Of a stretch of 64,000 bases of DNA, positions 47,968 to 64,000 are shown in pieces; within the stretch, counting starts at the first letter, position 1; every line of letters starts with the position of its first letter. The DNA is from Streptomyces sp. Je 1-332 (GTDB lineage Bacteria > Actinomycetota > Actinomycetes > Streptomycetales > Streptomycetaceae). The notes below the pieces were generated by a model. That model did not search any database, had not been told where the DNA came from, and was given only the letters and a program-made list of their open reading frames with translations. Location: NCBI RefSeq assembly GCF_040730185.1, contig NZ_CP160402.1, positions 2,728,001 to 2,792,000 of the forward strand, read 5' to 3'. The position numbers and the translations under genes are program-made.

Positions 47968-49137
47968 ATGGCAGCAGCGGGCAGCACTCCGGGCACCCCG
48001 AGCGTCCTGCGTGCCATGAACGACCGGGCCGTGCTGGATCTTCTCGTCGCGCACGGGCCCCTCACCCGCACCCGCATCGGCGAGCTGACCGGGCTCTCCA
48101 AGCCCACCACCTCACAGCTTCTCGGGCGGCTCGAAGCGGCCGGGCTCGTGCACACCACCGGCAGCCTCAGCGGCCGCCCTGGACCCAACGCGCTGCTGTA
48201 CGAGATCGATCCGGGCGCCGGACATGTCGCCGCGCTGTCCGCCGATCCCACCGGGATCACCGCTCTCGTCGCCGACATCACCGGCACCGTCATCGGCCAG
48301 GCCCGCGTCGAGGCGGACGCCGTGGCCGAGGATGTGCGCCACCGCACCGCCCAGCTGGTCGCGGAGGCCGTCGACGAGGCACTGCGCCAGGCTGGGCTCG
48401 GCCACGACGACCTGCGGGCCGCCGTCATCGGCACCCCCGGAGCCATCGACCCGCACACGGGTCAGCTGCGCTACGCCCCGCACCTGCCGGGCTGGCACTC
48501 GCGGACGCTGCGCGACGATCTCGCCGCCGTCCTCGGCACGCCCGTCGTCATCGAGAACGACGTGAACCTCGCCGCCGTCGCCGAGCAGTACGAGGGCGCC
48601 GCCCAGGACCACGACAACTACGTGCTCACCTGGGTCGACGACGGGGTCGGAGCCGCCATCGTGCTCGGCGGCACCCTGCTGCGCGGCGCGACCGGCGGCG
48701 CCGGCGAGATCGGCTACATGCCGCTGCCGGGCGCCCCGTTGGCGCACGGCGGCCCCGAGGCGACGCGTGGCCCGGACGGGGGCGGCGGCTTCCAGAGCCT
48801 GGTCTGCGCCCCGGTCGTACGCCAACTCGCGGGCGGCGCCGCTACGTTGGCGGACGCCTTCGCCGATGACTCCGTGCTCGACGAGGTGGCTCGGCGCCTC
48901 GCCACCGGCATCGCCGCGGTCGTCGCCGTCGTCGACCCCGAACTCGTCGTGCTCTCCGGCTCGGTGGCCCAGGCCGGCGGCGACAAGCTGCGCGTACGGG
49001 TCGAGGAGGAGCTGACCGGGTTGGCGCTGCCCCGCCCCAATGTCCGTATCAGCGAACTCGACGGCGACCCGATCCTCACCGGCGCCCTGCGCTCGGCCCT
49101 CACGCAGGCGCGCGACCAGGTCTTCGACACGGCCTGA
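47968..49137 (+). CDS. csnR: ROK family transcriptional regulator, CsnR-like
   Basis: A 389-residue regulator: N-terminal winged helix (RTRIGELTGLSKPTTSQLL) and a C-terminal ROK domain with the ATP-site region VIENDVNLAA and LGGTLLRGATGGAGEIGYM (in parts). The ROK zinc-binding Cys cluster is reduced, so a typical metal site is not obvious. It is the first gene of a sugar uptake operon whose order matches csnR-csnEFGHK. CsnR represses the operon and chitosanase genes until glucosamine oligosaccharides appear. The operator-like palindromes lie just upstream. Confidence 0.83.
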   Translation: MAAAGSTPGTPSVLRAMNDRAVLDLLVAHGPLTRTRIGELTGLSKPTTSQLLGRLEAAGLVHTTGSLSGRPGPNALLYEIDPGAGHVAALSADPTGITALVADITGTVIGQARVEADAVAEDVRHRTAQLVAEAVDEALRQAGLGHDDLRAAVIGTPGAIDPHTGQLRYAPHLPGWHSRTLRDDLAAVLGTPVVIENDVNLAAVAEQYEGAAQDHDNYVLTWVDDGVGAAIVLGGTLLRGATGGAGEIGYMPLPGAPLAHGGPEATRGPDGGGGFQSLVCAPVVRQLAGGAATLADAFADDSVLDEVARRLATGIAAVVAVVDPELVVLSGSVAQAGGDKLRVRVEEELTGLALPRPNVRISELDGDPILTGALRSALTQARDQVFDTA

Positions 49138-49190
49138 GCCGTCTTTCGCGCACCACCGAAACCGCCCCTCCCCCGTAAAGGAAGTCCGCC

Positions 49191-50531
49191 ATGCCGCGAT
49201 GGCGCATGCCCATCTGCGCGTCCGCGGCGCTCGCCGCAGCCGGTCTCCTGCTCTCCGGCTGCGCCAACCCGAGCGTCGGCAGCGCGAACGACGACCCGAC
49301 CGCGCCGGTCACCCTGAAGTTCTGGCACGGCTGGTCGACCCCCGGCGAGGTCAAGGCCGTCGACGACAGCATCGCCCGCTTCGAGAAGCTGCACCCGAAC
49401 ATCGACGTGCAGGCCACCGGGAACGTCTCCGACGCGACCGTCAACCAGGCCCTGCGCGCGGGCGGCGACAAGGCCCCGGACGTGGTGTCGTCCTTCACCA
49501 CCAACAACGTCGGCCAGTACTGCGACTCCGGGATGTGGGCGGACCTCGACCCGTTCATGAAGAAGACCGGGCTCGACAAGCGCAAGACGTTCCCCAAGAC
49601 GCTGCTCGACTACACGAGTTACCAAGGCAACCAGTGCGCTCTGCCGCTACTCGCGGACGCCTTCGGGATGTACTACAACAAGGACGCCTACAAGAAGGCG
49701 GGCATCGAACGGCCGCCCCGCACGATGTCCGAGTTCGAAGAGGTCTCCAAGAAGCTGACCATCCGCGACGGCAAGGACTCGTACAAGCAGGTCGGGTACA
49801 TGCCCAACTTCCGCTTCTACCAGAACAGTCCGGACCGGCTCTTCGCGCAGTGGGGCCCCCAGTACTTCGACGCCGACGGTGACGCGCGGCTCGCCGACGA
49901 GCCGTCGTCGTACAAGTTCTTCAAGACCACGCGGCAACTGGCCGACGCGCAGGGCGGGTTCAGCGACCTGGAGAAGTTCCGGATGTCGTTCGGCGACGAG
50001 ATGTCCAGCCAGAACGCCTTCCTCACCGGCAAGGTGGCCATGCATCTCGACGGTGAGTGGCGCGGCCTGATGCTGGACGAGGCGAAGGCCAAGTTCGACT
50101 GGGGCGTGGCCCCGCTGCCCGTCCCGGACGACCAGGCCGACACCTACGGGCGTGGCTTCATCACCGGCACCGTCGCCGGGATCGCGCACAGCAGCAAGCA
50201 CCAGAACGCCGCGTGGGAGCTGGTGCGGTTCCTGACCGCGGACACCAAGCAGGTCGTGAACTTCGCGAACGCCATCCACAACGTGCCCTCCACGTTCGCG
50301 GCGCTCAAGTCCCCCGACCTGGACGCCGATCCGACCTTCCGGACCTTCTTCGACATCCTGGAGAACAAGCACAGCAAGGCCCTGCCGCCCTCCGTCAACG
50401 GCGGCGCCTACGTCGTCTCCCTGATGGACTTCGCGTACTCCGTGGAGGCCGGGCGCGTCCCCGACCTGCGCAAGGGCCTGAAGAAGCTCGACGATCAGAT
50501 CGACGCCGACACCCTCCAGTCGAAGAGCTGA
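49191..50531 (+). CDS. csnE: ABC transporter solute-binding lipoprotein, CsnE-like
   Basis: A 446-residue family 1 sugar-binding lipoprotein. The lipobox LLSGC follows a short signal peptide, so the mature protein is anchored in the outer face of the membrane. The fold region LKFWHGWSTPGEVKAVDD is typical of this class. It should capture oligosaccharides, probably glucosamine oligomers by operon similarity, and deliver them to the two permeases. GGAAG precedes ATG 49191. Confidence 0.87.
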   Translation: MPRWRMPICASAALAAAGLLLSGCANPSVGSANDDPTAPVTLKFWHGWSTPGEVKAVDDSIARFEKLHPNIDVQATGNVSDATVNQALRAGGDKAPDVVSSFTTNNVGQYCDSGMWADLDPFMKKTGLDKRKTFPKTLLDYTSYQGNQCALPLLADAFGMYYNKDAYKKAGIERPPRTMSEFEEVSKKLTIRDGKDSYKQVGYMPNFRFYQNSPDRLFAQWGPQYFDADGDARLADEPSSYKFFKTTRQLADAQGGFSDLEKFRMSFGDEMSSQNAFLTGKVAMHLDGEWRGLMLDEAKAKFDWGVAPLPVPDDQADTYGRGFITGTVAGIAHSSKHQNAAWELVRFLTADTKQVVNFANAIHNVPSTFAALKSPDLDADPTFRTFFDILENKHSKALPPSVNGGAYVVSLMDFAYSVEAGRVPDLRKGLKKLDDQIDADTLQSKS

Positions 50532-50546
50532 GCTGAGGACCCCGCC

Positions 50547-51482
50547 ATGGCAATGACCCTCTCCAACCCCGCGCGCCGCAGACTGCGCACGCTCGGTTTC
50601 CTCTCCCCCTGGCTGGTCGGCTTCAGCGTCTTCTTCGCGTACCCGCTGATCGCCACCGTCTACTTCTCGTTCATGCACTACAACCAGATCAAGGAGCCCA
50701 CCTTCGTGGGCCTCCGCAACTGGACGTACGTGTTCGAGCAGATGCCCCTGTTCGGCCCCGCCCTGTGGAACACCCTCTGGCTCGTCGTGATCATGGTGGC
50801 CCTGCGGGTGGTCTTCGGGCTCTCGCTCGGGCTGCTCATCACGAAGATCAAGACGGGGGCCGGCTTCTTCCGCACCGCCTTCTACATCCCCTACCTCGCG
50901 CCGCCGGTGGCCGCCACCGTGGCCTTCGTCTTCCTGCTCAATCCGGGCTCCGGGCCGGTGAACGAGATCCTCGGCGCGGTCGGGATCTCCGGGCCCAACT
51001 GGTTCAACGACCCCGACACCGCCAAGCCCTCGCTGGTGCTGCTCTCCCTGTGGGGCATCGGCGACCTGATGGTGATCTTCATGGCCGCGCTGCTCGACGT
51101 GCCGAAGGAGCAGTACGAGGCCGCGGAGCTCGACGGCGCGGGCGCGTTCGCCAAGTTCCGTTACGTCACCTGGCCCGCGATCACGCCGATCGTAATGTTC
51201 GCGGTGGTCACGGGCGTCGTGCAGACCATGCAGTACTACACGCAGGCCCTGGTCGCGGGGAAGGTCGCATCCGGCGTCAACATCGGCCCCGGGTCGGTCA
51301 TCCAGCCCGGCTACCCGGAGCACTCGACCCTCACGGTCCCCCAGCTCGTCTACCAGATGGGCTTCCAGAACTTCAACACCGGCGCCGCGTGCGTGCTCTC
51401 GCTCGTGCTCTTCGCCATCGCCATGGCCGTGACGATGCTCCTGATGCGCAAGCGCTCCGGGCTGCTCTCGGCGGAGGACTGA
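50547..51482 (+). CDS. csnF: ABC sugar permease, CsnF-like
   Basis: A 311-residue, six-helix permease of the MalF type. The EAA loop reads EQYEAAELDGAGAFAKF, the contact site for the ATPase. It follows the binding-protein gene by 15 bp and precedes csnG by 6 bp. No ATPase gene is in the operon; Streptomyces sugar importers of this class are normally driven by the shared ATPase MsiK encoded elsewhere. Confidence 0.88.
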   Translation: MAMTLSNPARRRLRTLGFLSPWLVGFSVFFAYPLIATVYFSFMHYNQIKEPTFVGLRNWTYVFEQMPLFGPALWNTLWLVVIMVALRVVFGLSLGLLITKIKTGAGFFRTAFYIPYLAPPVAATVAFVFLLNPGSGPVNEILGAVGISGPNWFNDPDTAKPSLVLLSLWGIGDLMVIFMAALLDVPKEQYEAAELDGAGAFAKFRYVTWPAITPIVMFAVVTGVVQTMQYYTQALVAGKVASGVNIGPGSVIQPGYPEHSTLTVPQLVYQMGFQNFNTGAACVLSLVLFAIAMAVTMLLMRKRSGLLSAED

Positions 51483-51488
51483 GGACTC

Positions 51489-52397
51489 ATGACGACCACG
51501 ACTCTCGGCGCGCCGACCGCGCCCGCCCCCGTCCCGCACAAGCAGCGCGGCCCCGCCGCCGCCCGCGCCCGCCGCAAGCGGGTCCTGCACTGGATCGCCG
51601 TGCACAGCGTGGCGATAGCCGTCGCGCTGCTCTTCGTCCTGCCCTTCGTCTTCGTCTTCCTTACGTCGGTGATGAGCGACTCGCAGGCGATGAGCGGCGA
51701 CCTGTGGCCCGACTCCTGGCACTGGTCCAACTACAAGGCCGTGTTCGAGACGCCGGGCTTCCTGGACTGGTGGCGCAACTCGCTCATGTACGCGGGCCTC
51801 GGCACCCTCTTCACCGTCTGCTCGGCGATCCCCGTGGCGTACGCGCTCGCCAAGTTCCGCTTCCGCGGCCGGCGCACCGCGATGCTGCTTGTCATCTCCA
51901 CGATGATGCTGCCGCCGCAGGTCATCGTGATCCCGATGTACCTGGTGTGGGCCCAGCAGTTCCACCTGTCGGGCACGTTGTGGCCGCTGATCATCCCGAT
52001 GGCGTTCGGCGACGCGTACTCGATCTTCCTGCTGAGGCAGTTCCTCCTGACCATCCCCAAGGAGTACATCGAGTCGGCGAAGGTCGACGGCTGCGGCGAG
52101 TTCCGCACGATGATCAAGATCGTCGTCCCGATGGCCAAGCCCGGTATCGCCGCCATCGCGCTCTTCCAGTTCTTCTACTGCTGGAACGACTACTTCGGAC
52201 CGCAGATCTACGCGGCCCAGAACCCCGGCGCCTGGACGCTCAGTTACGGCCTGGAATCGTTCAAGAGCGCCCACAGCGTCAACTGGAACATGACCATGGC
52301 GGCGACCCTGCTCGTCATGGCGCCGGTCATCATCATCTTCTTCTTCGCACAAAAGGCCTTCGTCGAAGGCGTCACCCTCACCGGAGTAAAGGGCTGA
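51489..52397 (+). CDS. csnG: ABC sugar permease, CsnG-like
   Basis: A 302-residue, six-helix permease of the MalG type with EAA loop KEYIESAKVDGCGEFRT. It pairs with the upstream permease to form the importer channel. It is 6 bp after csnF and 8 bp before the GH4 gene. Confidence 0.88.
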   Translation: MTTTTLGAPTAPAPVPHKQRGPAAARARRKRVLHWIAVHSVAIAVALLFVLPFVFVFLTSVMSDSQAMSGDLWPDSWHWSNYKAVFETPGFLDWWRNSLMYAGLGTLFTVCSAIPVAYALAKFRFRGRRTAMLLVISTMMLPPQVIVIPMYLVWAQQFHLSGTLWPLIIPMAFGDAYSIFLLRQFLLTIPKEYIESAKVDGCGEFRTMIKIVVPMAKPGIAAIALFQFFYCWNDYFGPQIYAAQNPGAWTLSYGLESFKSAHSVNWNMTMAATLLVMAPVIIIFFFAQKAFVEGVTLTGVKG

Positions 52398-52405
52398 GAA
52401 CCGAT

Positions 52406-53671
52406 ATGAAGCTCGCAGTGGTCGGCGGAGGGTCGACCTACACACCCGAACTCATCGACGGATTCGCGCGGTTGAGGGACACCCTGCCGATCGAGGAGCT
52501 CGTCCTCGTCGACCCCGCCGCCGACCGTCTCGACCTCGTCGGGGGCCTGGCACGGCGCATCTTCGCCAAGCAGGGGCACCCCGGCCGCATCGTCACCACC
52601 TCCGACGTGGACGCGGGCGTCGCGGACGCCGACGCGGTCCTGCTCCAGCTCCGTGTCGGCGGGCAGGCGGCCCGCCAACAGGACGAGACGTGGCCCCTGG
52701 AGTGCGGCTGCGTCGGCCAGGAGACCACCGGCGCGGGCGGCCTGGCGAAGGCCCTGCGCACCGTGCCGGTCGTCCTGGACATCGCCGAGCGCGTACGCCG
52801 TACGAATCCGAACGCGTGGATCATCGACTTCACCAACCCGGTGGGCATCGTCACCCGGGCACTGCTCCAGGCCGGGCACAAGGCCGTCGGCCTGTGCAAC
52901 GTGGCGATCGGCTTCCAGCGGAAGTTCGCCAAGCTGCTCGACGTCGCGCCGGGCGAGGTCCATCTGGACCACGTCGGCCTCAACCACCTCACCTGGGAGA
53001 CGGGCGTACGTCTGGGGGGTCCGGGCGGCGAGGACATCCTGCCCAAGCTGCTCGCCGAGCACGGGGACGCGGTCGCCGCCGACCTGCGCATGCCGCGCGA
53101 GATCGTCGACCGGCTCGGCGTCGTGCCCTCGTACTACCTGCGGTACTTCTACCAGCATGACGCGGTGGTCGAGGAGCTGCGGACCAAGCCGTCGCGCGCC
53201 GCCGAAGTGGCAGCGATGGAGCGCGAGTTGCTGGAGATGTACGGCGACCCGACGCTCGACGAGAAGCCGGAGCTGCTCGCCAAGCGCGGCGGCGCCTTCT
53301 ACTCGGAGGCGGCCGTGGACCTCGCGGCCTCGCTGCTCGGCAACGGGGGCAGCCCGCACCAGGTGGTGAACACCGTCAACAACGGCACGCTGCCGTTCCT
53401 GCCGGACGACGCCGTGATCGAGGTGCAGGCCACGGTCGACGGCACGGGTGCCAAGCCCCTGGCGGTGCCGAAGCTCGACCCGCTGTACGCGGGGCTCATC
53501 GCCAACGTCACCGGCTACGAGGACCTGGCACTCCAGGCCGCCCTGCACGGCGGCCGCGACCGCGTCTTCAGGGCGCTGCTCGCCCACCCGCTGGTCGGCC
53601 AGTACGCGTACGCGGAAGCGCTCACCGACCGGCTCATCGCGCACAACCGGGAGCACCTGGCGTGGGCGTAG
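52406..53671 (+). CDS. csnH: GH4 family glycosidase (6-phospho-beta-glucosidase-like), CsnH-like
   Basis: A 421-residue NAD- and metal-dependent hydrolase. It starts with the NAD-binding MKLAVVGGGSTYTPEL and carries the metal/active-site regions CGCVGQETTGAGG, DFTNPVGIVTR and GLCNVAIGF. GH4 enzymes oxidise the sugar C3 transiently during hydrolysis. In this operon it probably splits imported glucosamine oligosaccharides, perhaps without a prior phosphate since import is by an ABC transporter. ATG 52406 follows the csnG stop by 8 bp; the long frame before it is shadow of the permease genes. Confidence 0.87.
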   Translation: MKLAVVGGGSTYTPELIDGFARLRDTLPIEELVLVDPAADRLDLVGGLARRIFAKQGHPGRIVTTSDVDAGVADADAVLLQLRVGGQAARQQDETWPLECGCVGQETTGAGGLAKALRTVPVVLDIAERVRRTNPNAWIIDFTNPVGIVTRALLQAGHKAVGLCNVAIGFQRKFAKLLDVAPGEVHLDHVGLNHLTWETGVRLGGPGGEDILPKLLAEHGDAVAADLRMPREIVDRLGVVPSYYLRYFYQHDAVVEELRTKPSRAAEVAAMERELLEMYGDPTLDEKPELLAKRGGAFYSEAAVDLAASLLGNGGSPHQVVNTVNNGTLPFLPDDAVIEVQATVDGTGAKPLAVPKLDPLYAGLIANVTGYEDLALQAALHGGRDRVFRALLAHPLVGQYAYAEALTDRLIAHNREHLAWA

Positions 53672-53673
53672 GC

Positions 53674-54654
53674 ATGAGCGTGCTCGCGATCGACGCGGGC
53701 AACAGCAAGACCGACGTCGCGGTGGTCGCGGCCGATGGCACCGTCGTCGGCGCGGCCCGCGGCGGCGGGTTCCAGCCGCCCCAGGTCGGCGTCGAGACCG
53801 CGGTGGACATTCTGGAGGAGGCGGTGACGCGGGCCCTGGCCGAGGCGGGCACCGACGCCGTCGGGCATGTGTCCGCCTGTCTCGCCAACGCCGATCTCCC
53901 GGTCGAGGAGCGGGAGTTGGGCCTTGCGCTGCGCCGCCGCGCGTGGGGCCCTTCCGTCGACGTACGCAACGACACCTTCGCCATCCTGCGGGCCGGGCTC
54001 CTGGAGGACGCCGAGCCGCGGGGCGTCGCCGTGGTGTGCGGGGCCGGCATCAACTGCGTGGGCATGCTGCCCGACGGGCGCACCGCGCGCTTCCCCGCCA
54101 TCGGCCGGATCTCCGGCGACTGGGGCGGCGGTGGCGGCCTCGCCGAGGAGGCGCTCTGGTACGCGGCGCGGGCGGAGGACGGCCGCGGCGATGCGACCGC
54201 GCTGCGGGAGACCTTGCCCGCGCACTTCGGCCTGCCCTCCATGTACGCGCTGATCGAGGCCCTGCACCTGGGCTCCATCGCCCCCGTACGGCGGCACGAG
54301 CTGACGCCGGTGCTCTTCGCGACGGCGGCGGCGGGTGACGCGGTGGCGCGCGCCCTGGTGGACCGGATGGCCGACGAGGTCGTCGCCATGTCGACCGTGG
54401 CCCTGGACCGCCTCGGCCTGCTCGGCGAGGAGACTCCGGTGCTGCTCGGCGGCAGCGTCCTCGCCGCCCGGCATCCGCAACTGGACGACCGCGTACGGGC
54501 TTTGCTGGCCGAGCGGGCGCCCAAGGCGGTGGCCAGGGTGGTCGTCGCCCGTCCGGTGCTCGGCGCGGCGCTGCTCGGCCTTGACCAGGTGGGGGCGCCG
54601 ACCGAGGTGCACGCGCGCGTGCGGGGGCACTACGAGAGTGGCGTGGGAGCCTGA
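53674..54654 (+). CDS. csnK: BadF/BadG-type sugar kinase (N-acetylglucosamine/glucosamine kinase-like), CsnK-like
   Basis: A 326-residue ASKHA-fold ATPase: phosphate-1 motif VLAIDAGNSKTDVAVV, later GVAVVCGAGINCVG and the adenosine-site region VLLGGSVLAARHP. It should phosphorylate amino sugars after hydrolysis by the GH4 enzyme. ATG 53674 lies 2 bp after the csnH stop; a GTG at 53662 would overlap csnH. It ends the operon. Confidence 0.85.
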   Translation: MSVLAIDAGNSKTDVAVVAADGTVVGAARGGGFQPPQVGVETAVDILEEAVTRALAEAGTDAVGHVSACLANADLPVEERELGLALRRRAWGPSVDVRNDTFAILRAGLLEDAEPRGVAVVCGAGINCVGMLPDGRTARFPAIGRISGDWGGGGGLAEEALWYAARAEDGRGDATALRETLPAHFGLPSMYALIEALHLGSIAPVRRHELTPVLFATAAAGDAVARALVDRMADEVVAMSTVALDRLGLLGEETPVLLGGSVLAARHPQLDDRVRALLAERAPKAVARVVVARPVLGAALLGLDQVGAPTEVHARVRGHYESGVGA

Positions 54655-54738: not shown

Positions 54739-54798
54739 TGATCCGGGCAGGCATTCGCTGATCCGGGCAGGCTTCGCATGATCCGTACAGGTCTCCAG
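54739..54798 (+). repeat. 20-bp direct repeat, three units, before the glnX operon
   Basis: Units 54739-54758, 54759-54778 and 54779-54798 each begin TGATCC, the first two being nearly identical (TGATCCGGGCAGG) and the third diverged. The 20-bp period is about two helical turns. The array lies 118-177 bp before the first gene of the signalling operon. Confidence 0.75.
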
Positions 54799-54915
54799 GC
54801 GCAGTGATCAGAACAAGATCCAGTCAAGACCTGTGCGGATGTCGGTCCCTACGGCGATACTTGCCGCCGTGCACTTCTTCCCGCACCGCGCACGCCGGGC
54901 GGAAGTGAACGTCCG

Positions 54916-56406
54916 ATGACCAAGGGGGAGGTCGAGGTCGAGGTGACATACCCGCCGAACGGCAGCGCCGCGCCGCCGGGACAGGCCGCGCCGACGATTC
55001 CTGCCGTTCCGCCGCAGGCAAGCCCGGGCTCAGCGGTATCCGCACCGGCCGTGCCGGGCGCGCCGCCCCGCCGCCCCGCGTGGATCGAGGGCCGGGACCG
55101 GCTGCGCGCGGCGGCGACGACGGAGCCGGGCAGGCTGCGGATCATCGGAGCCGTCCTCGCGCTGCTCGTCGTGGCGTTCGGCGCCGTCACCACCTGGCAG
55201 ATGTCCGACCGTTCGGCCGCCGCCGACAGCGTCCTGAACCGCAGCCAGCCGCTGAGCGACGACGCGGCGGCCATCTACCGCTCCCTCGCGGACGCCAACA
55301 CCGCCGCGTCCAGCGGCTTCCTCGCGGGCGGCCAGGAACCGGCCGCCGTACGCGACCGGTACAAGGCTGACATCGAGCGGGCCTCCGAGAAGCTGGCGAA
55401 CGCCGCGTCGAACGCGGGCTCGGGATCGTCGGCCGCCGCGTCGGTGACCAAGCTGAACAAGCTCCTGCCGGAGTACACGGGCCTGATCGAGCGCGCCCGC
55501 GCGAGCAACCGCCAGGGCCTGCCCCTGGGCGGCGCCTATCTGCGGTACGCGAACGACAAGATGCAGACGCAGATGCTCCCGGCCGCCGAGCAGCTCTACA
55601 CCGCGGAGAAGCAGCGGCTGAACAGGGACTACGACGACGCGAAGCCGTATCCGTGGCTGGCCATCGCCCTCGGTCTGCTCGCGCTCGGCGCCCTGTTCTG
55701 GGCCCAGCGCCGCAACTACCGCCGTACGAACCGGGTGTTCAACCACGGCCTGGTCGCCGCGACCGCCGCGTCCACGGTCGTCCTGCTCTGGCTGGTCGCC
55801 GGGCACTCCTTCGCGCGGTCGGGGCTCAACGACTCGTACGACCACGGCGTGAAGTCCCTGAACGTCCTGAACGACGCCCGCATCAGCTCCCTCAAGGCCC
55901 GCAGCAACGAGAACCTCACGCTGGTCAGCCGCGGCGCCGAGACCGTCGAGGTGGGCGCGGCGAAGACGGTCAAGGACAAGTTCGACGTCGCCTACCAGTC
56001 GCAGATGAAGCAACTCGGCAGCGCCGACAGCGGGCTGCTCGGCAAGGCCGTGGCCGTGGCCGACAACGCCGCGGGCAAGAACCCCGTCAAGGAGGCCGCG
56101 AAGAACGTGTCGGTCTGGAAGGACCGGCACAAGACAGCGCGGGACAGCGACGACGCGGGTGACTACAACGGCGCGCTCGCCAAGGTCGTCGGCGACAAGG
56201 ACGACGAGCCCACCGGCGAGTGCTTCGACAACGTCGACGAAGCACTCGACGACGCGCTGAAGCACGAGCGGAACGAATTCGAGCTGGCGGCCAAGGACGG
56301 CAAGGGAGCGATGAGCGGGCTCCCGGTGGGTGCCGCCGTGCTCGCCGTGCTCGCCGCCGTCGGCGCCGTGCTCGGCGTCGGGCGCAGGCTGTCGGAGTAC
56401 AGGTGA
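54916..56406 (+). CDS. glnX: Four-TM GlnX-like membrane protein
   Basis: A 496-residue protein: a Pro/Ala-rich cytoplasmic N-terminus (1-74), TM1 about 75-95, an outer helical domain about 96-244, TM2 about 245-262, a short inner loop, TM3 about 278-300, a second outer domain about 301-468, TM4 about 470-490 and a nine-residue tail. This two-sensor-domain layout and its position before glnH and pknG match GlnX of mycobacteria and corynebacteria, which relays the ligand state of GlnH to PknG. Sequence identity to those proteins cannot be judged by eye, so the name rests on topology and context. Confidence 0.75.
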   Translation: MTKGEVEVEVTYPPNGSAAPPGQAAPTIPAVPPQASPGSAVSAPAVPGAPPRRPAWIEGRDRLRAAATTEPGRLRIIGAVLALLVVAFGAVTTWQMSDRSAAADSVLNRSQPLSDDAAAIYRSLADANTAASSGFLAGGQEPAAVRDRYKADIERASEKLANAASNAGSGSSAAASVTKLNKLLPEYTGLIERARASNRQGLPLGGAYLRYANDKMQTQMLPAAEQLYTAEKQRLNRDYDDAKPYPWLAIALGLLALGALFWAQRRNYRRTNRVFNHGLVAATAASTVVLLWLVAGHSFARSGLNDSYDHGVKSLNVLNDARISSLKARSNENLTLVSRGAETVEVGAAKTVKDKFDVAYQSQMKQLGSADSGLLGKAVAVADNAAGKNPVKEAAKNVSVWKDRHKTARDSDDAGDYNGALAKVVGDKDDEPTGECFDNVDEALDDALKHERNEFELAAKDGKGAMSGLPVGAAVLAVLAAVGAVLGVGRRLSEYR

Positions 56407-56423
56407 GAGGGGGCGAGCGGACG

Positions 56424-57434
56424 ATGCGTACGCGAGGACTGGCGAGGATGCGCGGCTGGGGCGGAGCTGCCGCCATGGCGGTGGCCTGCGCGCTCACGGG
56501 CTCCCTCGTGCTCGTGCTCCCGGAGGCAGGCAGCGCGGTCAAGTCCGGCCAGGGAGAGAGCCGCGCCTCCCAGGGCTCCGCGGTTGCCGCACCCGCGCGC
56601 GCCGAGGAGTGCGAGACCCCGGAGGAGAGCCTCTCGCCGGACGACAAGGACGGCCCGACGATCGATGCCATCCGCGAACGCCCGGTGAAGAAGCTCATCG
56701 TCGGCGTCGACCAGAACAGCTTCCGCTGGGGCTACCGCGACCCGAACAAGAAGACGGCGACGCTCGAAGGCTTCGACATCGACCTCGCGCACAAGATTGC
56801 CGAGGAGATCCTCGGCGACCGCGACGCCGTGCTCTTCCGGGCCATCCCCACCAACCAGCGCGTCAAGGCGATACAGAGCGGCCAGGTCGACATGGTGGTG
56901 CGGACCATGACGATCACCTGCGACCGCGAGAAGGAAGTCTCCTTCTCCACCGCCTACTTCAAGACCGGGCAGCAGGTGCTCGCCCCCAAGTCCTCGGACA
57001 TCACCGGGTTCGACGACTCCCTGGACGGCAAGAAGGTCTGCTCCGCGAAGGGTTCCACGGCCCTCACCAAGCTGGAGGAGCTCAAGAAGGAGGGCCTCGA
57101 TGCCGACATCGGTACTACGGTCCCGAACCAACTCGACTGTCTGGTAAGGCTTCAGCTCGGTGAGGTGGACGCCGTCGTGACCGACAGCGCGCTCGCCGCG
57201 AGCCAGGCCGCGCAGGACCCGACGGTCGAGCTCAAGGGCGACGCACCGCTCAACACGGAGTACTACGGCGTGGCGATGAAGAAGCCGGAGAAGGGCGAGG
57301 ACGACCTGGTGCGGCGGGTCAACCAAGTCCTTGAGGACTACCGCAAGAGCGGCTGGCAGAAGAGTTATGACCACTGGCTGAAGCCGGCCCTCGGTGAATC
57401 GGCGGGACCGCCCGCGCCGAAGTACAGCGACTGA
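56424..57434 (+). CDS. glnH: Glutamate/aspartate-type solute-binding protein, GlnH-like
   Basis: A 336-residue family 3 binding protein. An N-terminal signal or anchor segment (AAAMAVACALTGSLVLVL) lacks a perfect lipobox, though a Cys is present. The body starts KKLIVGVDQNSFRWGY and contains EGFDIDLAHKIAEEI and RTMTITCDREKEVSFS. The segment DMVVRTMTITCDRE resembles mycobacterial GlnH, which binds Asp/Asn/Glu. Alternative start GTG 56403 overlaps the glnX stop (GTGA) and has GGAG six bases upstream, so coupling is likely. No transport permease is present, consistent with a sensor rather than an importer. Confidence 0.82.
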   Translation: MRTRGLARMRGWGGAAAMAVACALTGSLVLVLPEAGSAVKSGQGESRASQGSAVAAPARAEECETPEESLSPDDKDGPTIDAIRERPVKKLIVGVDQNSFRWGYRDPNKKTATLEGFDIDLAHKIAEEILGDRDAVLFRAIPTNQRVKAIQSGQVDMVVRTMTITCDREKEVSFSTAYFKTGQQVLAPKSSDITGFDDSLDGKKVCSAKGSTALTKLEELKKEGLDADIGTTVPNQLDCLVRLQLGEVDAVVTDSALAASQAAQDPTVELKGDAPLNTEYYGVAMKKPEKGEDDLVRRVNQVLEDYRKSGWQKSYDHWLKPALGESAGPPAPKYSD

Positions 57435-57473
57435 GCCCGACGTGCACAGCAACGCAGAGCGGAGAGGTGATCG

Positions 57474-58793
57474 ATGAGCGTCGCGGGACCCCCCGGTCCT
57501 GTGATGGACCGGGACGAGGTGGACCGTGCGCTGGCGCGCCTCGACGCAGAGCACGAGGCGATCGAGACCTCGCTCCTCGCCCTTCAGGATCACGCGGGCC
57601 GCCGGCTCCTCGAAGGCGCCGGTCTCACCGGCACCACACAGGAGCGCTGGCAGTCCACCGAGCAGCAGATCACCCTGCTGTGGGCGTACTTCGACGCGTA
57701 CGCCGCCGCCCTGCGCTCGGCGCACGAGGTGCGGGCCCGCAGACGCTGGCCCAGCAGGGACGACCTGGTGGAGCTGACCGAGCTGCTGCGCGGTGAGAGT
57801 GTCACCGTCGCCGGCGGCGCCGCCCCCGCGCCGTCGGCCTCGATCACCGGACCCGCCAAGCTCACCGAACGCTTCACGCTCATCGAACTCGTCTCGCGGA
57901 TGAACGACCTGTACGCGCACTCGCTCGACATGGTCGTCGCCGCCGACGCGGTCTGGTCCGCGCTGCCCGCCCGCATCGACCTCCTCGCGGCCGAGCTGCA
58001 GCGCACCCGCCAGCTCGCCCACTCCGTGGGAGTACGCCCCGGTGAGCACCCCGCGGGCGACGACCTGGAGCGGATCACGGCCGAGCTGACGCTCCTGCGC
58101 GAGCAGGTGATCTCCGACCCGCTGGCCTTCTGGCAACCCACGCGGGGCAGTTCGGCCCCCGGCGGCGGCCGCCCGCACACCGATCGGTACGACCGCGAAG
58201 CCCGCGCCCTGGAGGACGTACGCCGGGAGATCGACGCGGTGCTCACCGTCCGGCAGGACGCCGAGCTGCGCCTTGGCAGACTCCGTGACGTGCTCTCGCG
58301 CGCGGACCGCACGCTGGCCGAGGCGCGCTCCGCGCGCGGCGAGGTCCTCGCCAAGATCGCCGCGTCCGAGGTGCCCGCCGTCAGCGGCCCTTCCACCGCG
58401 CTGCAGGAGCAGCTCGCGATGGCGTCCGACTACCGCAGGCACGCCCAGTGGCACCGCCTGTCCCCGCTCCTGGAGTCCCTGGAGGAGAAGGCCGAGGACG
58501 AACTCATGCGCGCCCGTGAGTCGTTGACGGCCGTCACCCAGCCCCTCGCGGTCCGCGCGGAGCTGCGCGGCCGGCTCGACGCGTACAAGGCCAAGGTCGC
58601 CCGTCTCGGCCACGCGGAGGACCCGTTCCTGATCGAGCGGTACGACGCGGCGCGCCGGATGCTGTGGAGCGCGCCCTGCGATCTGCGCGTCGCCGAACAG
58701 GCGGTGCTTCGTTATCAGCAGGCAGCCGCCGAAGTCCTTGCATCGAGGGTCCCGCAACAGGGCGGTCCCACCGACCGGAGGGGGGAAGCATGA
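57474..58793 (+). CDS. Helical protein of unknown function in the PknG operon
   Basis: A 439-residue, charged, Ala/Leu/Arg-rich protein with several long predicted helices and coiled-coil-like stretches (e.g. RALARLDAEHEAIET, ELRLGRLRDVLSRADRTL). No membrane helix, signal peptide or catalytic motif is visible, so it is probably cytoplasmic. It ends with a four-base overlap (ATGA) with the kinase gene, so the two are translationally coupled and a scaffold or substrate of PknG is plausible. No equivalent is known in the mycobacterial glnX-glnH-pknG operon. Confidence 0.8.
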   Translation: MSVAGPPGPVMDRDEVDRALARLDAEHEAIETSLLALQDHAGRRLLEGAGLTGTTQERWQSTEQQITLLWAYFDAYAAALRSAHEVRARRRWPSRDDLVELTELLRGESVTVAGGAAPAPSASITGPAKLTERFTLIELVSRMNDLYAHSLDMVVAADAVWSALPARIDLLAAELQRTRQLAHSVGVRPGEHPAGDDLERITAELTLLREQVISDPLAFWQPTRGSSAPGGGRPHTDRYDREARALEDVRREIDAVLTVRQDAELRLGRLRDVLSRADRTLAEARSARGEVLAKIAASEVPAVSGPSTALQEQLAMASDYRRHAQWHRLSPLLESLEEKAEDELMRARESLTAVTQPLAVRAELRGRLDAYKAKVARLGHAEDPFLIERYDAARRMLWSAPCDLRVAEQAVLRYQQAAAEVLASRVPQQGGPTDRRGEA

Positions 58794-61393
58794 GTGAGCA
58801 GCAGAAATGCCAGCGACCCGGATGCACGGGGTCGTACGAGGACGTGGGCGGCGGCGAGCTGTACTGCGACACCTGCGGTCTGGCCCCGGTCGTCTCGCCG
58901 ACGGGCCTGGTGTCCTCTCCCCCGACCGGCATCACCGGCGGCGGCAAGGGCTCGGGCAGCAGCAGCTCCCGGTCCAGCTCGCGGTCCTCGTCACGCTCCG
59001 CGCGCTCCCAGTCGTCCCGCAGATCGGTCTCGGGCCGCCTCTCGCGCTCGCTGTCCGGCAGCTCGACGTCCCGTTCGGTCTCGGTACGCAGCTCAGGACC
59101 CTCCGCGGGCACGTCCGGCCGCAGCAGGCTCGGCGTGGGCCTGGTGCTCGTGCCCGAGGTGCCGCGCCCCGATCCGCGCCAGGCGGTGCAGGAGAACCCC
59201 GAGGTTCCCGAGCGCAAGCGGTTCTGCTCGCGCTCCGACTGCGGGGCGCCGGTCGGCCGTGCGCGCGGCGACCGGCCCGGCCGCACCGAGGGGTTCTGCA
59301 CCAAGTGCGGCCACCCGTACTCGTTCGTGCCGAAGCTGAACGCCGGAGACATCGTGCACGGCCAGTACGAGGTCGTGGGCTGTCTGGCGCACGGCGGGCT
59401 CGGCTGGGTGTATCTCGCCGTCGACCGCGCGGTGTCCGACCGCTGGGTGGTCCTCAAGGGCCTGCTCGACACGGGTGACCAGGACGCGATGGCCGCCGCG
59501 ATCTCCGAGCGCCGCTTCCTCGCCGAGATCGAGCACAGCAACATCGTGCGCATCTACAACTTCGTCGAGCACCTCGACCAGCGCACGGGCTCCATGGACG
59601 GCTACATCGTCATGGAGTACGTCGGCGGCAAGTCCCTGAAGGAGATCGCCAACGAACGCCGCACGGCGCAGGGCAAGCGCGACCCGCTGCCCGTCGAGCA
59701 GGCGTGCGCGTTCGGCATCGAGGCCCTGGAGGCCCTCGGCCATCTGCACAGCCGCAATCTCCTGTACTGCGACTTCAAGGTCGACAACGCCATCCAGACC
59801 GAGGACCAGCTCAAGCTGATCGACATGGGCGCGGTCCGCCGCATGGACGACGACGAGTCGGCGATCTACGGCACGGTCGGCTATCAAGGCCCCGAAGTCG
59901 CCGAGCTGGGCCCGTCGGTGGCCTCCGACCTGTACACGGTGGCGCGCACCCTGGCCGTGCTCACCTTCGACTTCCAGGGCTACACGAACGTCTTCGTGGA
60001 CTCCCTGCCGGACCCCGACAACATCGAGGTCTTCCGTACGTACGAGTCGTTCTACCGCCTCCTCGTGCGCGCCACCGACCCGGACCCGGCCCGCAGGTTC
60101 GCCTCCGCGCAGGAGATGGCCGAGCAGCTCACAGGCGTCCTGAGAGAGGTCGTGGCCCTCCAGACGGGCCGGCCGCGGCCCGCGCTCTCGACGCTGTTCG
60201 GGCCCGAGGTGAAGGTCACGGACACGGAGCTGTTCGCGGAACTGACCGGGGACGTCTCCCAGTTCGGGGTACGGGTGCTGCCCGCGGGGCGGCGCACACG
60301 GCGCCCCGAACTGACGGCCGGCCAGGGGGCGGGCGCGGGTGGCAACGGCTCGTCCGCGATCGCGCCTCCGGTGCCGCCGGCCGCGCCGCCCGCCCGGATC
60401 GTCCGGCCGCTCGACGCCCCCGCGACGGCCCTCGCGCTGCCGGTCCCGCGCGTCGACCCGAACGACCCGAACGCCGGGTTCCTTGCCGGGCTCATGGCCT
60501 CCGCGCCCGCCGAGCTGATCACCGCGCTGCGGGCCGCGCCCAGCGACTCCGTGGAGCTGCGGCTGCGCGGACTGCGCGCCCGCCTCGCCATGGGTGAACT
60601 GGAGGGCGCTGCACAGGCGTTGACGGAGCTTGAGATACAGCACCCGGACGACTGGCGGGTGGTCTGGTACCGCGGGGTCGCCTCGCTCGCGACCGGCGAC
60701 CACGAGAACGCGGCGCTGTCCTTCGACGCCGTGTACGACGCGTTCCCCGGCGAGCCCGCCCCCAAGCTGGCCCTCGGCGTCTGCGCGGAGGTCCTGGAGC
60801 AGCTGGACAACGCGGCCGAGTACTACCGCCTGGTGTGGGCCACCGACCCGAGCTTCGTCAGCGCGGCGTTCGGCCTGGCCCGCGTGCAGCTCGCGTCGGA
60901 CGACCGGCGCGGTGCCGTGCGGACCCTGGAGTCGGTGCCCGAGGCCTCGATCCACTACACGGCGGCCCGGGTGGCCGCCGTGCGGGCGAGGCTGCGGCAC
61001 CGAATGACGCCGGGCACCGCGCCGTCGCCCGGTGGCCGTCTCGGCGACTTCCTCGACGACCTGACGGCCTCTGCGGGCCAGGTGGAGGCCCTCGCGGGCT
61101 TCGGCCTGGACGCGGTGCGTCGCGAGCGACTGTCCACCGAGGTCCTTGGTACCGCGTTGGACTGGGTACTCTCCGGTAGGCACCCTGGTCACGCCTCCGC
61201 CCCGCCGGCAGCACCCGCTGCACCGGCAGGCGGTTCGCGGACCGTGCTGCTCGGCAGCGACCTCGACGAGCGGGGCCTCCGGTTCGGCCTGGAGCGCTCG
61301 TACCGAACGCTTGCCCGGCTCGCACAGGGTGGCGAGGAAAGGATCGAACTGGTGGAGCGGGCCAACCGTTTCCGCCCTCGGACGTGGGTGTGA
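58790..61393 (+). CDS. pknG: Serine/threonine protein kinase PknG
   Basis: An 867-residue soluble kinase. Domains in order: zinc ribbon (CQRPGC, CDTCG; residues 7-30), a Ser/Arg-rich low-complexity stretch, a second, rubredoxin-like ribbon (CSRSDC, CTKCG; about 145-170), kinase domain from about 190 (GQYEVVGCLAHGGLGW; Lys223 in VVLKG; catalytic YCDFKVDNA; DMGA instead of DFG), a Pro/Ala linker, and TPR-like helices about 560-740. The lack of an RD motif and the DxGA variant are features of PknG. Mycobacterial PknG phosphorylates GarA/OdhI to release 2-oxoglutarate dehydrogenase; no FHA protein is in this window. ATG 58790 follows GGAGGGGGG. Confidence 0.93.
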   Translation: MSEQQKCQRPGCTGSYEDVGGGELYCDTCGLAPVVSPTGLVSSPPTGITGGGKGSGSSSSRSSSRSSSRSARSQSSRRSVSGRLSRSLSGSSTSRSVSVRSSGPSAGTSGRSRLGVGLVLVPEVPRPDPRQAVQENPEVPERKRFCSRSDCGAPVGRARGDRPGRTEGFCTKCGHPYSFVPKLNAGDIVHGQYEVVGCLAHGGLGWVYLAVDRAVSDRWVVLKGLLDTGDQDAMAAAISERRFLAEIEHSNIVRIYNFVEHLDQRTGSMDGYIVMEYVGGKSLKEIANERRTAQGKRDPLPVEQACAFGIEALEALGHLHSRNLLYCDFKVDNAIQTEDQLKLIDMGAVRRMDDDESAIYGTVGYQGPEVAELGPSVASDLYTVARTLAVLTFDFQGYTNVFVDSLPDPDNIEVFRTYESFYRLLVRATDPDPARRFASAQEMAEQLTGVLREVVALQTGRPRPALSTLFGPEVKVTDTELFAELTGDVSQFGVRVLPAGRRTRRPELTAGQGAGAGGNGSSAIAPPVPPAAPPARIVRPLDAPATALALPVPRVDPNDPNAGFLAGLMASAPAELITALRAAPSDSVELRLRGLRARLAMGELEGAAQALTELEIQHPDDWRVVWYRGVASLATGDHENAALSFDAVYDAFPGEPAPKLALGVCAEVLEQLDNAAEYYRLVWATDPSFVSAAFGLARVQLASDDRRGAVRTLESVPEASIHYTAARVAAVRARLRHRMTPGTAPSPGGRLGDFLDDLTASAGQVEALAGFGLDAVRRERLSTEVLGTALDWVLSGRHPGHASAPPAAPAAPAGGSRTVLLGSDLDERGLRFGLERSYRTLARLAQGGEERIELVERANRFRPRTWV

Positions 61394-61395
61394 AG

Positions 61396-62826
61396 ATGTC
61401 GCAGATGCACCAGCAGACTGCCGGGGCAGGTTCCACGTGCCCCGGCTGCGAAGAGCCGCTGGAATCGGGTGACCTGTTCTGCGGGGCGTGCGGGTACGAC
61501 CTGTCGGCGCAGCCGGCCGGGTCCAACGACCGTCCCACCGTCGCGATGAACGGCTCGTCGGCCGCGCCACCGCCGGACGCGTCGTCGCAGTGGCCCATCG
61601 CCCCGGACGTGGACAGCTCCGACATGCCGGTGCCCGCGCACCTGCCCACCGACCTGCCGGTCACGGAGTCGTCGGGCGGCGAGCGCTCCCCGAACGCGGG
61701 GGACGCACGGGCCGCGCAGGGCCCTCGGGGCGCTCAGGCCGCTCAGGGCGCTCAGGGCGCGAGGGAGGTGCGCACCGACGCCCCCGCCGCGCGCCCCGCC
61801 GAGCCGGACGAGTACCCCCTGCCGGCTCCCGGCGCCCCCGCTCCCGGCGCCCCGGCCCCGGAGCTCGCCGACCCGCGTACGGCCCTGCCCGACCCCACGC
61901 CGCCCGCGGGCACCAAGCTCTGCGTGGCGTGCCGTTCGGGCCGTGTGGACCCGGACGGCTACTGCGAGAACTGCGGGCACGCGCAGCCGCGCGAGCGCGA
62001 CCACATGGAGCAGGAGCTCGACGCGGTCGCGGCGGTCAGCGACCGGGGCCTTCGCCACCACCGCAACGAGGACGCGTTCGCCATCTCGTCGACCGCGCTG
62101 CCGGACGGGTCCCCCGCCGTCGTCGCGATCGTCTGCGACGGTGTCTCGTCCGCGACCCGCCCCGACGAGGCCTCGCTCGCCGCCTCACGCGCGGCCAACG
62201 AATCGCTGCTCGCCGCCCTGCCGCGCGGCACGCACCCGCAGCAGGCCATGCACGACGCGATCCTCGCGGCCTCCGACGCCGTCAACGCCCTTGCCGCGGA
62301 GCCCACTCGGGCCAGGGAGCACTCCCCGCACCAGAACGCCCCCGCGTGCACCATCGTCGGCTCGATCGTCGCCGGCGATCTGCTGGTCGTCGGCTGGGTC
62401 GGCGACAGCCGCGCCTACTGGGTCCCCGACGACCGCAGCGGTCCGACGGCCCGCCTCACCGAGGACGACTCGTGGGCGGCGCAGATGGTGGCCGCGGGTC
62501 TGATGAACGAGGCGGAGGCGTACGCCGACGAGCGCGCGCACGCCATCACGGGCTGGCTCGGCGCCGACGCGTACGAACTGGAGCCGCACACCGCTTCCTT
62601 CAAGCCGGACCGTGCGGGTGTAGTGGTGGTGTGCACGGACGGGCTGTGGAACTACGCGGAAGCGGTGGACGAGATGGCACGCGCCGTACCCGCCGATTCC
62701 GCCGAGCGCCCGCTGCACAGCGCCCAGGTCCTGGTCGGCCACGCGCTGGACGGCGGGGGCCACGACAACGTAACAGTGGCGATTCTGCCGTTCCGTGTCG
62801 TGCCGCAAGGGGCAGGATCCGCCTAG
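61396..62826 (+). CDS. PP2C-type protein phosphatase with two zinc ribbons
   Basis: A 476-residue soluble phosphatase. Residues 15-35 form a zinc ribbon (CPGCEE, CGACGYD), an Ala/Pro-rich linker follows, a second ribbon lies near 176-200 (CVACRSG, CENCGHA), and the PP2C domain fills 212-470 with all metal-binding motifs: RHHRNEDAF, VCDGVSS, GWVGDSRA, CTDGLW and GGHDNVTV. It starts 2 bp after the kinase stop (ATG 61396; ATG 61405 also possible). Kinase and phosphatase in one operon suggest opposing action on the same substrate. The linker contains repeated GAQ/APGAP sequences. Confidence 0.92.
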   Translation: MSQMHQQTAGAGSTCPGCEEPLESGDLFCGACGYDLSAQPAGSNDRPTVAMNGSSAAPPPDASSQWPIAPDVDSSDMPVPAHLPTDLPVTESSGGERSPNAGDARAAQGPRGAQAAQGAQGAREVRTDAPAARPAEPDEYPLPAPGAPAPGAPAPELADPRTALPDPTPPAGTKLCVACRSGRVDPDGYCENCGHAQPRERDHMEQELDAVAAVSDRGLRHHRNEDAFAISSTALPDGSPAVVAIVCDGVSSATRPDEASLAASRAANESLLAALPRGTHPQQAMHDAILAASDAVNALAAEPTRAREHSPHQNAPACTIVGSIVAGDLLVVGWVGDSRAYWVPDDRSGPTARLTEDDSWAAQMVAAGLMNEAEAYADERAHAITGWLGADAYELEPHTASFKPDRAGVVVVCTDGLWNYAEAVDEMARAVPADSAERPLHSAQVLVGHALDGGGHDNVTVAILPFRVVPQGAGSA

Positions 62827-62831
62827 TGAAG

Positions 62832-62893
62832 GCCCCCGCAACGGGGGCCGGCCACGCGCACTTGTCACCCACCGGCTTGGGGAAGCCGGTGGG
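62832..62893 (+). terminator. Two hairpins between the phosphatase and VWA genes
   Basis: Hairpin 1 (62832-62839 with 62843-62850, 8 bp) and hairpin 2 (62869-62879 with 62883-62893, 11 bp) are both perfect with three-base loops. They lie within the operon-like gap and could act as an attenuator or processing site, reducing VWA expression, or as a terminator with a new promoter for the VWA gene. Confidence 0.6.
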
Positions 62894-62917
62894 AACGTCT
62901 AGGGGGAGCAGGGAACC

Positions 62918-64000
62918 ATGGCCAATTTCTCGAAGTCGAACGTGCCGCAGTTCTCGGTCGACGTCTACCAGAACGAGTACCTCCCGGAGGGCGGCCGCGA
63001 GGTCAACGCGATCGCCACGGTGACCTCGACGGGCGGCGGCACGGTGGGGGCCGCGGTGAGCGCCCCGCACCTCTACTCGGCGGGGCAGACCCCGGACGCG
63101 GCCGTGGCGATCATGGTCGACTGTTCCGGCTCGATGGACTACCCGCCCACGAAGATGCGCGGCGCCCGTGACGCCACGGCCGCCGCCATCGACGCCGTAC
63201 GTGACGGAGTCCACTTCGCGGTGATCGGCGGCACCCATGTCGCCAAGGAGGTCTATCCGGGAGACGGCCGCCTCGCGGTCGCCGACTCACGGACCCGGGA
63301 CCAGGCCAAGCAGGCGCTGCGCAAGCTCAGCGCGGGCGGCGGCACGGCCATCGGCACGTGGCTGCGGCTTGCCGACCGGCTCCTGTCCTCGGCCGACGTC
63401 TCCATACGGCACGGAATCGTGCTCACGGACGGCCGCAATGAACACGAGTCACCTGAGGATCTGCAGGCCTCACTCGACGCCTGCGCGGGCCGCTTCACCT
63501 GCGACGCGCGTGGCGTGGGCACCGACTGGGAGGTCAAGGAGGTCACCGGCATCGCATCGGCGCTGCTCGGCACCGCGGACATCGTCGCCGACCCCTCGGG
63601 GCTCTCCGCCGACTTCACGCAGATGATGGAGGCGGCGATGGGCAAGGAGGTCGCCGACGTCAGCCTGCGGCTGTGGACACCGCTGGGCGCGGAGATCAAG
63701 TTCGTCAAGCAAGTGGCGCCCACGGTCGAGGAGTTGACCGAGCGTCGTACGGAGGCGGGACCGCGCGCCGGCGACTATCCCACCGGGTCCTGGGGCGACG
63801 AGTCCCGCGATTACCACATCTGCGTCGAGGTGCCGAACGCCGAGCTCGGCCAGGAGATGCTCGCGGCCCGCGTCTCGCTGATCGTGCCGCAGCCGGACGG
63901 CAGCGCCCAGACGCTCTCCCAGGGGCTCGTGCGGGCCGTGTGGACGGATGACATGTCCGCTTCGACGTCGATCAACCCGCAGGTGGCGCACTACACGGGC
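62918..64000 (+). CDS. VWA domain protein (3' truncated)
   Basis: The frame is open from ATG 62918 (GGGGGAGCAGGG upstream) to the window end: 361 codons visible. A von Willebrand A domain fills about residues 60-240 with an intact metal site: DCSGSMD, then a Thr in GGGTAIGTW and an Asp in LTDGRNEHE. No signal peptide or membrane helix is seen, so it is cytoplasmic. The segment after the VWA domain is beta-rich. Its place after kinase and phosphatase suggests a protein-interaction partner or effector of that pair. The C-terminal part, which may hold an FHA or zinc-ribbon domain, is outside the window. Confidence 0.88.
   Translation, partial: MANFSKSNVPQFSVDVYQNEYLPEGGREVNAIATVTSTGGGTVGAAVSAPHLYSAGQTPDAAVAIMVDCSGSMDYPPTKMRGARDATAAAIDAVRDGVHFAVIGGTHVAKEVYPGDGRLAVADSRTRDQAKQALRKLSAGGGTAIGTWLRLADRLLSSADVSIRHGIVLTDGRNEHESPEDLQASLDACAGRFTCDARGVGTDWEVKEVTGIASALLGTADIVADPSGLSADFTQMMEAAMGKEVADVSLRLWTPLGAEIKFVKQVAPTVEELTERRTEAGPRAGDYPTGSWGDESRDYHICVEVPNAELGQEMLAARVSLIVPQPDGSAQTLSQGLVRAVWTDDMSASTSINPQVAHYTG

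Follow-up and report, generated by a model that had tools for sequence, protein, structure and literature searches.

A seven-gene PknG operon of Streptomyces and other actinobacteria encoding a vWA-FHA protein pair that resembles archaeal ArnB and ArnA

Introduction

The Ser/Thr kinase PknG is known for GarA and for mycobacterial virulence. Together with GlnX and GlnH it forms part of the GlnX-GlnH-PknG-GarA/OdhI system, with which mycobacteria and corynebacteria sense amino acids (PMC6069109, PMC9769921). Here we describe a pknG operon at the end of a 64,000-nt stretch of the genome of Streptomyces sp. Je 1-332 (C1:2728001-2792000; hereafter the window), the genome comprising 8.27 Mb in one contig. 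The GlnX-GlnH-PknG part of this operon is already known; the ArnAB-like pair of vWA and FHA proteins that it also encodes suggests a second, unstudied output of PknG.

Results

Six genes of the window lie on the plus strand in the order GlnX, GlnH, Hel, PknG, PP2C and vWA, with the positions, the ATGA overlap at 58790 and the gaps of 2-39 bp up to PP2C given in a preliminary description made from the sequence alone. A seventh gene, for an FHA protein, follows on the same strand beyond the window end (genome C1:2792371-2793666; L009:5371-6666). The intergenic gaps from GlnX to FHA are 17, 39, -4 (ATGA), 2, 91 and 109 bp, the last lying outside the window. TTA codons are absent from all seven genes, and the run ends downstream of the FHA gene at a PCMT-like gene on the opposite strand.

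GlnX (54916-56406, 496 aa) is a membrane protein with two outer domains and, by hydropathy, four transmembrane-like stretches; it scored 513 bits against the NCBIfam GlnX family NF058618 (cut-off 250) and 198.6 bits against the narrower equivalog NF041460, under its cut-off of 780. PknG (58790-61393, 867 aa) consists of a rubredoxin domain (59117-59338), a kinase domain and a TPR domain (Pfam PknG_rubred 1.6e-30, Pkinase 7.8e-24, PknG_TPR 1.7e-82), with an N-terminus that is cysteine-rich by eye. These domains, the match to the PknG structure 2PZI (2.4e-164) and a PknG tree place the kinase within the PknG family, and it is the sole PknG_TPR match in the genome. The module recognized in the preliminary description is therefore genuine, and it is linked to Hel, PP2C and vWA.

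GlnH (56424-57434, 336 aa) is a solute-binding protein (SBP_bac_3, 4.5e-26) whose closest PDB entries are the GlnH structures 6H1U and 6H2T (4.6e-47). It has an N-terminal hydrophobic stretch with a Cys inside it, seen by eye, which leaves the lipoprotein status of the predicted signal sequence ambiguous. Seven side chains contact the ligand in mycobacterial GlnH according to PMC6069109; four are identical here (Arg147, Thr162, Arg169 and Asp250), two are conservatively substituted (K161R, S164T), and the seventh is W232Q. The protein is of the GlnH type, as the earlier label of a Glu/Asp-type binding protein implied, but binding of acidic amino acids is uncertain because Trp232 of the mycobacterial pocket is Gln here. 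Position 232 is Gln in 24/25 Streptomyces, Tyr in 24/24 members of family f78 and Trp in 14/15 members of family f3. A tie between Trp232 and the type of operon was rejected: the seven-gene f3 locus L047 also has Trp, so the residue follows lineage.

The vWA gene (62918-64000 of the window, with 261 bp more beyond it and a stop at the would-be position 64261; L009:3918-5261) encodes 447 aa. The protein matched 4FX5 as an orthologue (1.4e-135), the C-terminal tail being common to both; 4FX5 is a structural genomics entry that we take to be the vWA protein of Catenulispora acidiphila, and no assigned function was found for it. After this orthologue, the best structural match of the vWA model in the PDB was ArnB, with which it shares its architecture, a vWA domain inserted in a split beta-sandwich and followed by a C-terminal helical domain. 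The sequence contains the start of the metal ion-dependent adhesion site, DCSGSM, and ends in a conserved Ser/Thr tail motif. The FHA protein (431 aa) has two N-terminal zinc ribbons, a linker and a C-terminal FHA domain with retained phosphothreonine-binding residues, and it aligned with ArnA across the whole span from zinc ribbon to FHA domain. Both ArnAB partners are therefore matched, one by fold and the other by alignment. A Catenulisporales contig (L113) carries an 88% identical vWA gene and the vWA-FHA pair; its vWA gene lies at the contig start, where linkage to pknG is unreadable.

Hel (57474-58793, 439 aa) is all-helical in its AlphaFold2 model (mean predicted local distance difference test score 90.4, predicted template modelling score 0.72). 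It had no match in Pfam, NCBIfam or PADLOC, and its predicted fold had none in the PDB at E<=0.001. The PP2C phosphatase (61396-62826, 476 aa) matched PP2C_2 (1.6e-11) and, under that model's cut-off, Stp1_PP2C_phos (1e-29); an alignment of relatives shows its metal-site motifs to be retained. Of its two N-terminal zinc ribbons one was found by Pfam (Zn_ribbon_3, 3e-4, under its cut-off) and the second by eye, and a CxxC...CxxC pattern is present in 68/68 relatives, as read on stop-to-stop frames. The 91-bp gap between PP2C and vWA (62827-62917) holds two strong hairpins on the plus strand (62831-62893; fold of 62824-62917, -47.2 kcal/mol, z -2.2), which make it uncertain that a single transcript runs on into vWA-FHA; they are possibly an attenuator or a processing site. 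A perfect inverted repeat occurs within the first 60 bp of 33/69 homologous gaps. A scan for sigma-70 promoters and T-tailed terminators gave nothing above chance.

The distribution of the operon was studied with PknG_rubred matches from a phylum sample of 296 genomes and a class sample of 393. The 100 neighbourhoods fetched were chosen in favour of large contigs and diverse families, and they include one off-target match and three second-copy loci. Profile hidden Markov models were grown from these same neighbourhoods, and as those for PP2C and FHA drifted (155 and 149 matches), matches were counted only above 60 bits. All seven genes were found together in 58/100 neighbourhoods from eight actinobacterial families: 25/25 Streptomyces main copies (that of G295 in fragments), 15/28 f78 loci, in which GlnX-GlnH is relocated downstream yet adjacent, 8/11 of f79, 6/6 of f7, 1/2 of f95, 1/1 of f74, 1/20 of f3, and 1/1 of f41, which is of a different class and has GlnX-GlnH on the opposite strand. 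Incomplete sets are in part explained by contig ends. A scan of named genomes with the vWA alignment confirmed 557 places, and of the 80 best of these 60 had all seven genes in exactly this order and six the f78-type order (Actinoallomurus, Actinomadura). The remaining 14 comprise L130 and L185, which have all seven genes plus extra pieces of one or two that look like split frames, and 12 short loci (5 to 14 kb) clipped by contig ends. Genera with the full set among these 80 include Streptomyces, Streptacidiphilus, Kitasatospora, Actinospica and Kibdelosporangium.

Family f3 includes mycobacteria-like genomes, as the PknG of locus L032 matched 2PZI across the whole chain (1282 bits). GlnX-GlnH-PknG stands alone in 14/20 f3 loci and PknG alone in 5/20, and the 19 loci without the full set gave no PP2C or FHA match above 60 bits; in f99 the three genes stand alone in 2/2. 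One f3 genome (G594; L045-L048) has four PknG copies, namely a three-gene operon, a seven-gene operon and two lone kinases. The PknG tree comprised 61 rows, took the Streptomyces second copies as its root and was computed by a quick method with Shimodaira-Hasegawa-like approximate likelihood ratio support only and no bootstrap. It united the 20 f3 kinases in one clade and required six changes of vWA state. Its first f3 branch is L047, the only seven-gene f3 locus, and the other 19 kinases sit on one starred branch; the three-gene f3 operon is therefore most simply a reduced form. Counts alone cannot separate loss from gain; from the tree, the three-gene mycobacterial form looks derived, and the seven-gene locus is probably the full, older form of the actinobacterial PknG operon. 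The linkage of genes reported in the preliminary description is confirmed; its view of an extended form is not supported. A mobile or strain-specific extension was likewise set aside, the seven-gene set being widespread and near-universal in Streptomyces.

Losses within this genus divide the operon. Of 393 Streptomyces genomes, 383 gave a PknG_rubred match and 373 a VWA_3_C match. A search for Hel covered 28 genomes in which a match was weak or missing, plus one small genome as control, and found it in 26 of these 29; 20 of the 26 loci were fetched, the six omitted sitting in assemblies of at least 640 contigs, and with G295, G547 and G515 they gave 23 inspected loci. PknG is lost or a remnant in 12 loci that are readable through FHA (G295, G547, G515, G893, G899, G914, G1003, G847, G861, G962, G1001 and G1005); in a thirteenth, G1007, it was not seen and the contig ends. 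GlnX and GlnH, judged at the locus only, are gone or remnants in 11/11 readable cases, the contig of G893 ending upstream, whereas Hel, PP2C and FHA persist in 12/12. The FHA residues fit in all 12, as do three PP2C motifs, the fourth being unmatched in two, and vWA is missing or broken in 9/12. As Hel sits between GlnH and PknG, a loss of GlnX-GlnH and PknG that spares it needs at least two separate losses; a Hel tree, with rows chosen for losses, gave eight changes of PknG state. The opposite losses in f3 and in PknG-less Streptomyces show that the operon consists of two separable halves, the sensor-kinase half GlnX-GlnH-PknG and the phospho-switch half Hel/PP2C/(vWA)/FHA.

A GarA/OdhI homologue with the ETTS motif is encoded in the genome, as had been anticipated, and is unlinked to the operon (L004, C1 about 1177284-1177820, minus strand). 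An additional CxxC zinc ribbon lies N-terminal to its ETTS motif; the 162-residue GarA of M. tuberculosis is too short to hold one. GarA was found in 44/44 Streptomyces searched, PknG-less genomes included. The motif ETTSTISISG is present in 31/38 Streptomyces GarA rows, the other seven being shown in the wrong frame; three PknG-less or PknG-broken genomes (G295, G515 and G547) have it. Control of GarA as the only output is weakened by this retention where PknG is gone.

Discussion

We propose, with a probability of about 0.5, that PknG acts on the vWA-FHA pair, so that GlnH-GlnX-PknG would feed an ArnAB-like switch as well as the unlinked GarA. Gene content and order, their wide conservation, the folds, the kept catalytic and phosphothreonine-binding residues, the Ser/Thr tail and the division into two halves are directly established. 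Phosphorylation and binding are inferred at each step, and so are the ligand and the final target. GlnH would sense an external amino-acid-like ligand, GlnX would relay the signal across the membrane, and PknG would be the kinase, a course of events carried over from the homologous systems of mycobacteria and corynebacteria, which have been tested. The FHA protein may rest on the vWA protein by means of a zinc ribbon. Threonines at the vWA C-terminus would be phosphorylated by PknG and probably by further kinases, and the FHA domain would lock onto them until PP2C reverses the modification, Hel assisting PP2C and FHA in some manner. The effector half (PP2C, FHA, Hel and usually vWA) may thus be an ArnAB-like, phosphorylation-controlled assembly that is open to other kinases, with PknG as one input and GarA as a second, unlinked target of the kinase.

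A working link between PknG and vWA is favoured by the near-confinement of VWA_3_C to PknG-bearing genomes: in the class sample, 102/105 VWA_3_C positives also bear PknG, and VWA_3_C occurred in 3/241 genomes without a PknG_rubred match. In Streptomyces, vWA is missing from 10/19 PknG-lacking and 10/374 other genomes (Fisher 6e-10, counted by eye), a test confounded by fragmented assemblies, by kinship and by the misassignment of one genome or more. PF16919 is moreover an imperfect proxy for PknG, as G953 scored weakly yet has the kinase.

Several findings weigh against our proposal. In independent tree contrasts, the tracking of PknG loss by vWA loss was not significant. The persistence of Hel, PP2C and FHA in all PknG-less loci is one such point, and a second is that three of these loci (G899, G1003, G861) keep a whole vWA with its tail motif; tail and phosphatase therefore do not require PknG, and the tail as a strictly PknG-dependent site was rejected. 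Conversely, five PknG-bearing loci (G953, G976, G783, G794 and G687) have lost vWA and kept the other six genes, and the PknG-bearing G823 is without vWA and FHA. These Streptomyces losses mean that the link is not obligatory. The structural matches of vWA to ArnB are at about 15% identity; at the sequence level the vWA profile matched ArnB only within the vWA domain (9.2e-9) and gave E 1.1 against 5A8J, and the FHA profile fits GarA (8.3e-10), via the FHA domain alone, slightly better than ArnA. Equivalence of the vWA tail motif to the mapped ArnB phosphothreonines is not shown by the sequences, and the motif is absent from three paralogous Streptomyces vWA proteins.

The reading that survives best beside ours, possible though on the doubtful side, is that two independent units share an operon for reasons of dosage or history: GlnX-GlnH-PknG would act on GarA only, and Hel-PP2C-vWA-FHA would serve other Ser/Thr kinases. 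The double dissociation between f3 (14/20 loci with the sensor-kinase half only) and PknG-less Streptomyces argues for it, as does the constancy of GarA in Streptomyces, its motif included. Against it stand the physical linkage of both halves in eight families, the f78 loci in which GlnX-GlnH has moved yet stays adjacent, and the rarity of VWA_3_C in class genomes without a PknG_rubred match. A further counterpoint comes from the three Streptomyces second copies, L102, L103 and L104 (G023, G182 and G123), where a diverged PknG-like kinase adjoins a vWA protein with a C-terminal zinc ribbon in place of the Ser/Thr tail, and other operon genes are absent save for a weak Hel match in two.

A wider reading, which we regard as rather unlikely, is that PknG was ancestrally part of a bacterial ArnAB-type nutrient switch in which vWA was a hub docking zinc-ribbon proteins, and that mycobacteria dropped the hub and kept the GarA branch. 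The FHA protein, PP2C, PknG and, in Streptomyces, GarA would then dock on vWA, which would bring the kinase, the phosphatase and the readers together on a single scaffold.

The preliminary description regarded PP2C as a dedicated phosphatase and Hel as an adaptor in a complete reversible circuit; on such a model GarA would be switched on and off, and vWA and FHA would be accessories. The 2-bp pknG-PP2C gap and the zinc ribbons on both GarA and PP2C in Streptomyces are in keeping with this model, but we consider it improbable. The operon does not hold the whole circuit, as GarA is unlinked and the FHA gene had been overlooked, and since PP2C is kept without PknG it does not qualify as a phosphatase of PknG alone. 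This PP2C is also missing from the 19 f3 loci that have less than the full set, and in C. glutamicum the phosphatase Ppp acts on OdhI and the pknG operon is described as glnX-glnH-pknG (PMC9769921).

A TerY-P-like triad for stress or defence joined to the PknG operon has the same three enzyme kinds, a Ser/Thr kinase, PP2C and vWA, and zinc ribbons (PMC11090510), but is very improbable, since the kinase has a C-terminal PknG_TPR and an N-terminal metal-binding rubredoxin instead of the C-terminal zinc-ribbon fusion of TerY-P kinases, PADLOC gave only generic kinase matches for PknG and none for the other six proteins, the identified flanking genes (annotation was not exhaustive) include no defence gene, and the operon is near-universal in Streptomyces. 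No TerY-named model in NCBIfam or PADLOC was matched, and the operon differs from the triad also in its FHA and sensor genes and probably in its type of vWA, the best fold of which is ArnB.

With the mycobacterial and corynebacterial system (PMC6069109, PMC9769921) the locus shares a GlnX of the same family, a GlnH of the same fold, the domain set of PknG, the linked gene order and, elsewhere in the genome, a GarA with ETTS; it differs in its four additional genes, the W232Q exchange in GlnH and the zinc ribbon on GarA. The ArnA-ArnB phospho-switch of Sulfolobus works with the kinase ArnC and the phosphatase PP2A (PMC6509490, PMC12852372). With it the operon shares a vWA protein with split beta-sandwich and C-terminal helical domain, a partner gene of the zinc ribbon-linker-FHA type, the combination of kinase and phosphatase, and a nutrient link; it differs in being bacterial, in having PknG with its own membrane sensor and PP2C instead of PP2A, and in the low identity. 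The Arn system controls archaellum genes; no archaellum is known from streptomycetes, and the output here would differ. The threonine-phosphorylation pathway of type VI secretion, TagQRST-PpkA-PppA-Fha1, likewise combines an envelope sensor, a kinase, a PP2C and an FHA protein; unlike there, the identified flanks here include no secretion genes, and the vWA is separate from the kinase.

In the literature we found no link of PknG to this vWA-FHA pair, nor in print the seven-gene form, the ArnAB-type pair within it, the derived three-gene form or the dissociation into two halves; some sources were accessible in part, and figures, supplements and subscription papers were outside the scope of the search. 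Fig. 2B of PMC6069109 shows, by its legend, the conservation of the PknG operon, so its authors may have seen extra genes. In the papers found, PknG was studied in mycobacteria and corynebacteria, and the mycobacteria-like lineage has, according to the tree, lost over half of the operon. If vWA-FHA is an output of PknG, antibiotic-producing actinomycetes have a second branch from nutrients to phosphorylation and the orphan structure 4FX5 gains a pathway; if the hub reading is true, a nutrient switch of kinase, phosphatase, vWA and FHA is common to bacteria and archaea. The natural split, with GlnX-GlnH-PknG alone in some genomes and Hel-PP2C-FHA alone in others, makes the roles testable by deletion.

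Upstream of the operon, at 47968-54654, lies a sugar-uptake set with frames for a ROK-like regulator, a sugar-binding lipoprotein, two ATP-binding cassette permeases, a glycosidase-like protein and a BadF-like kinase, named by eye from their translations except for one permease, which was identified with Pfam.

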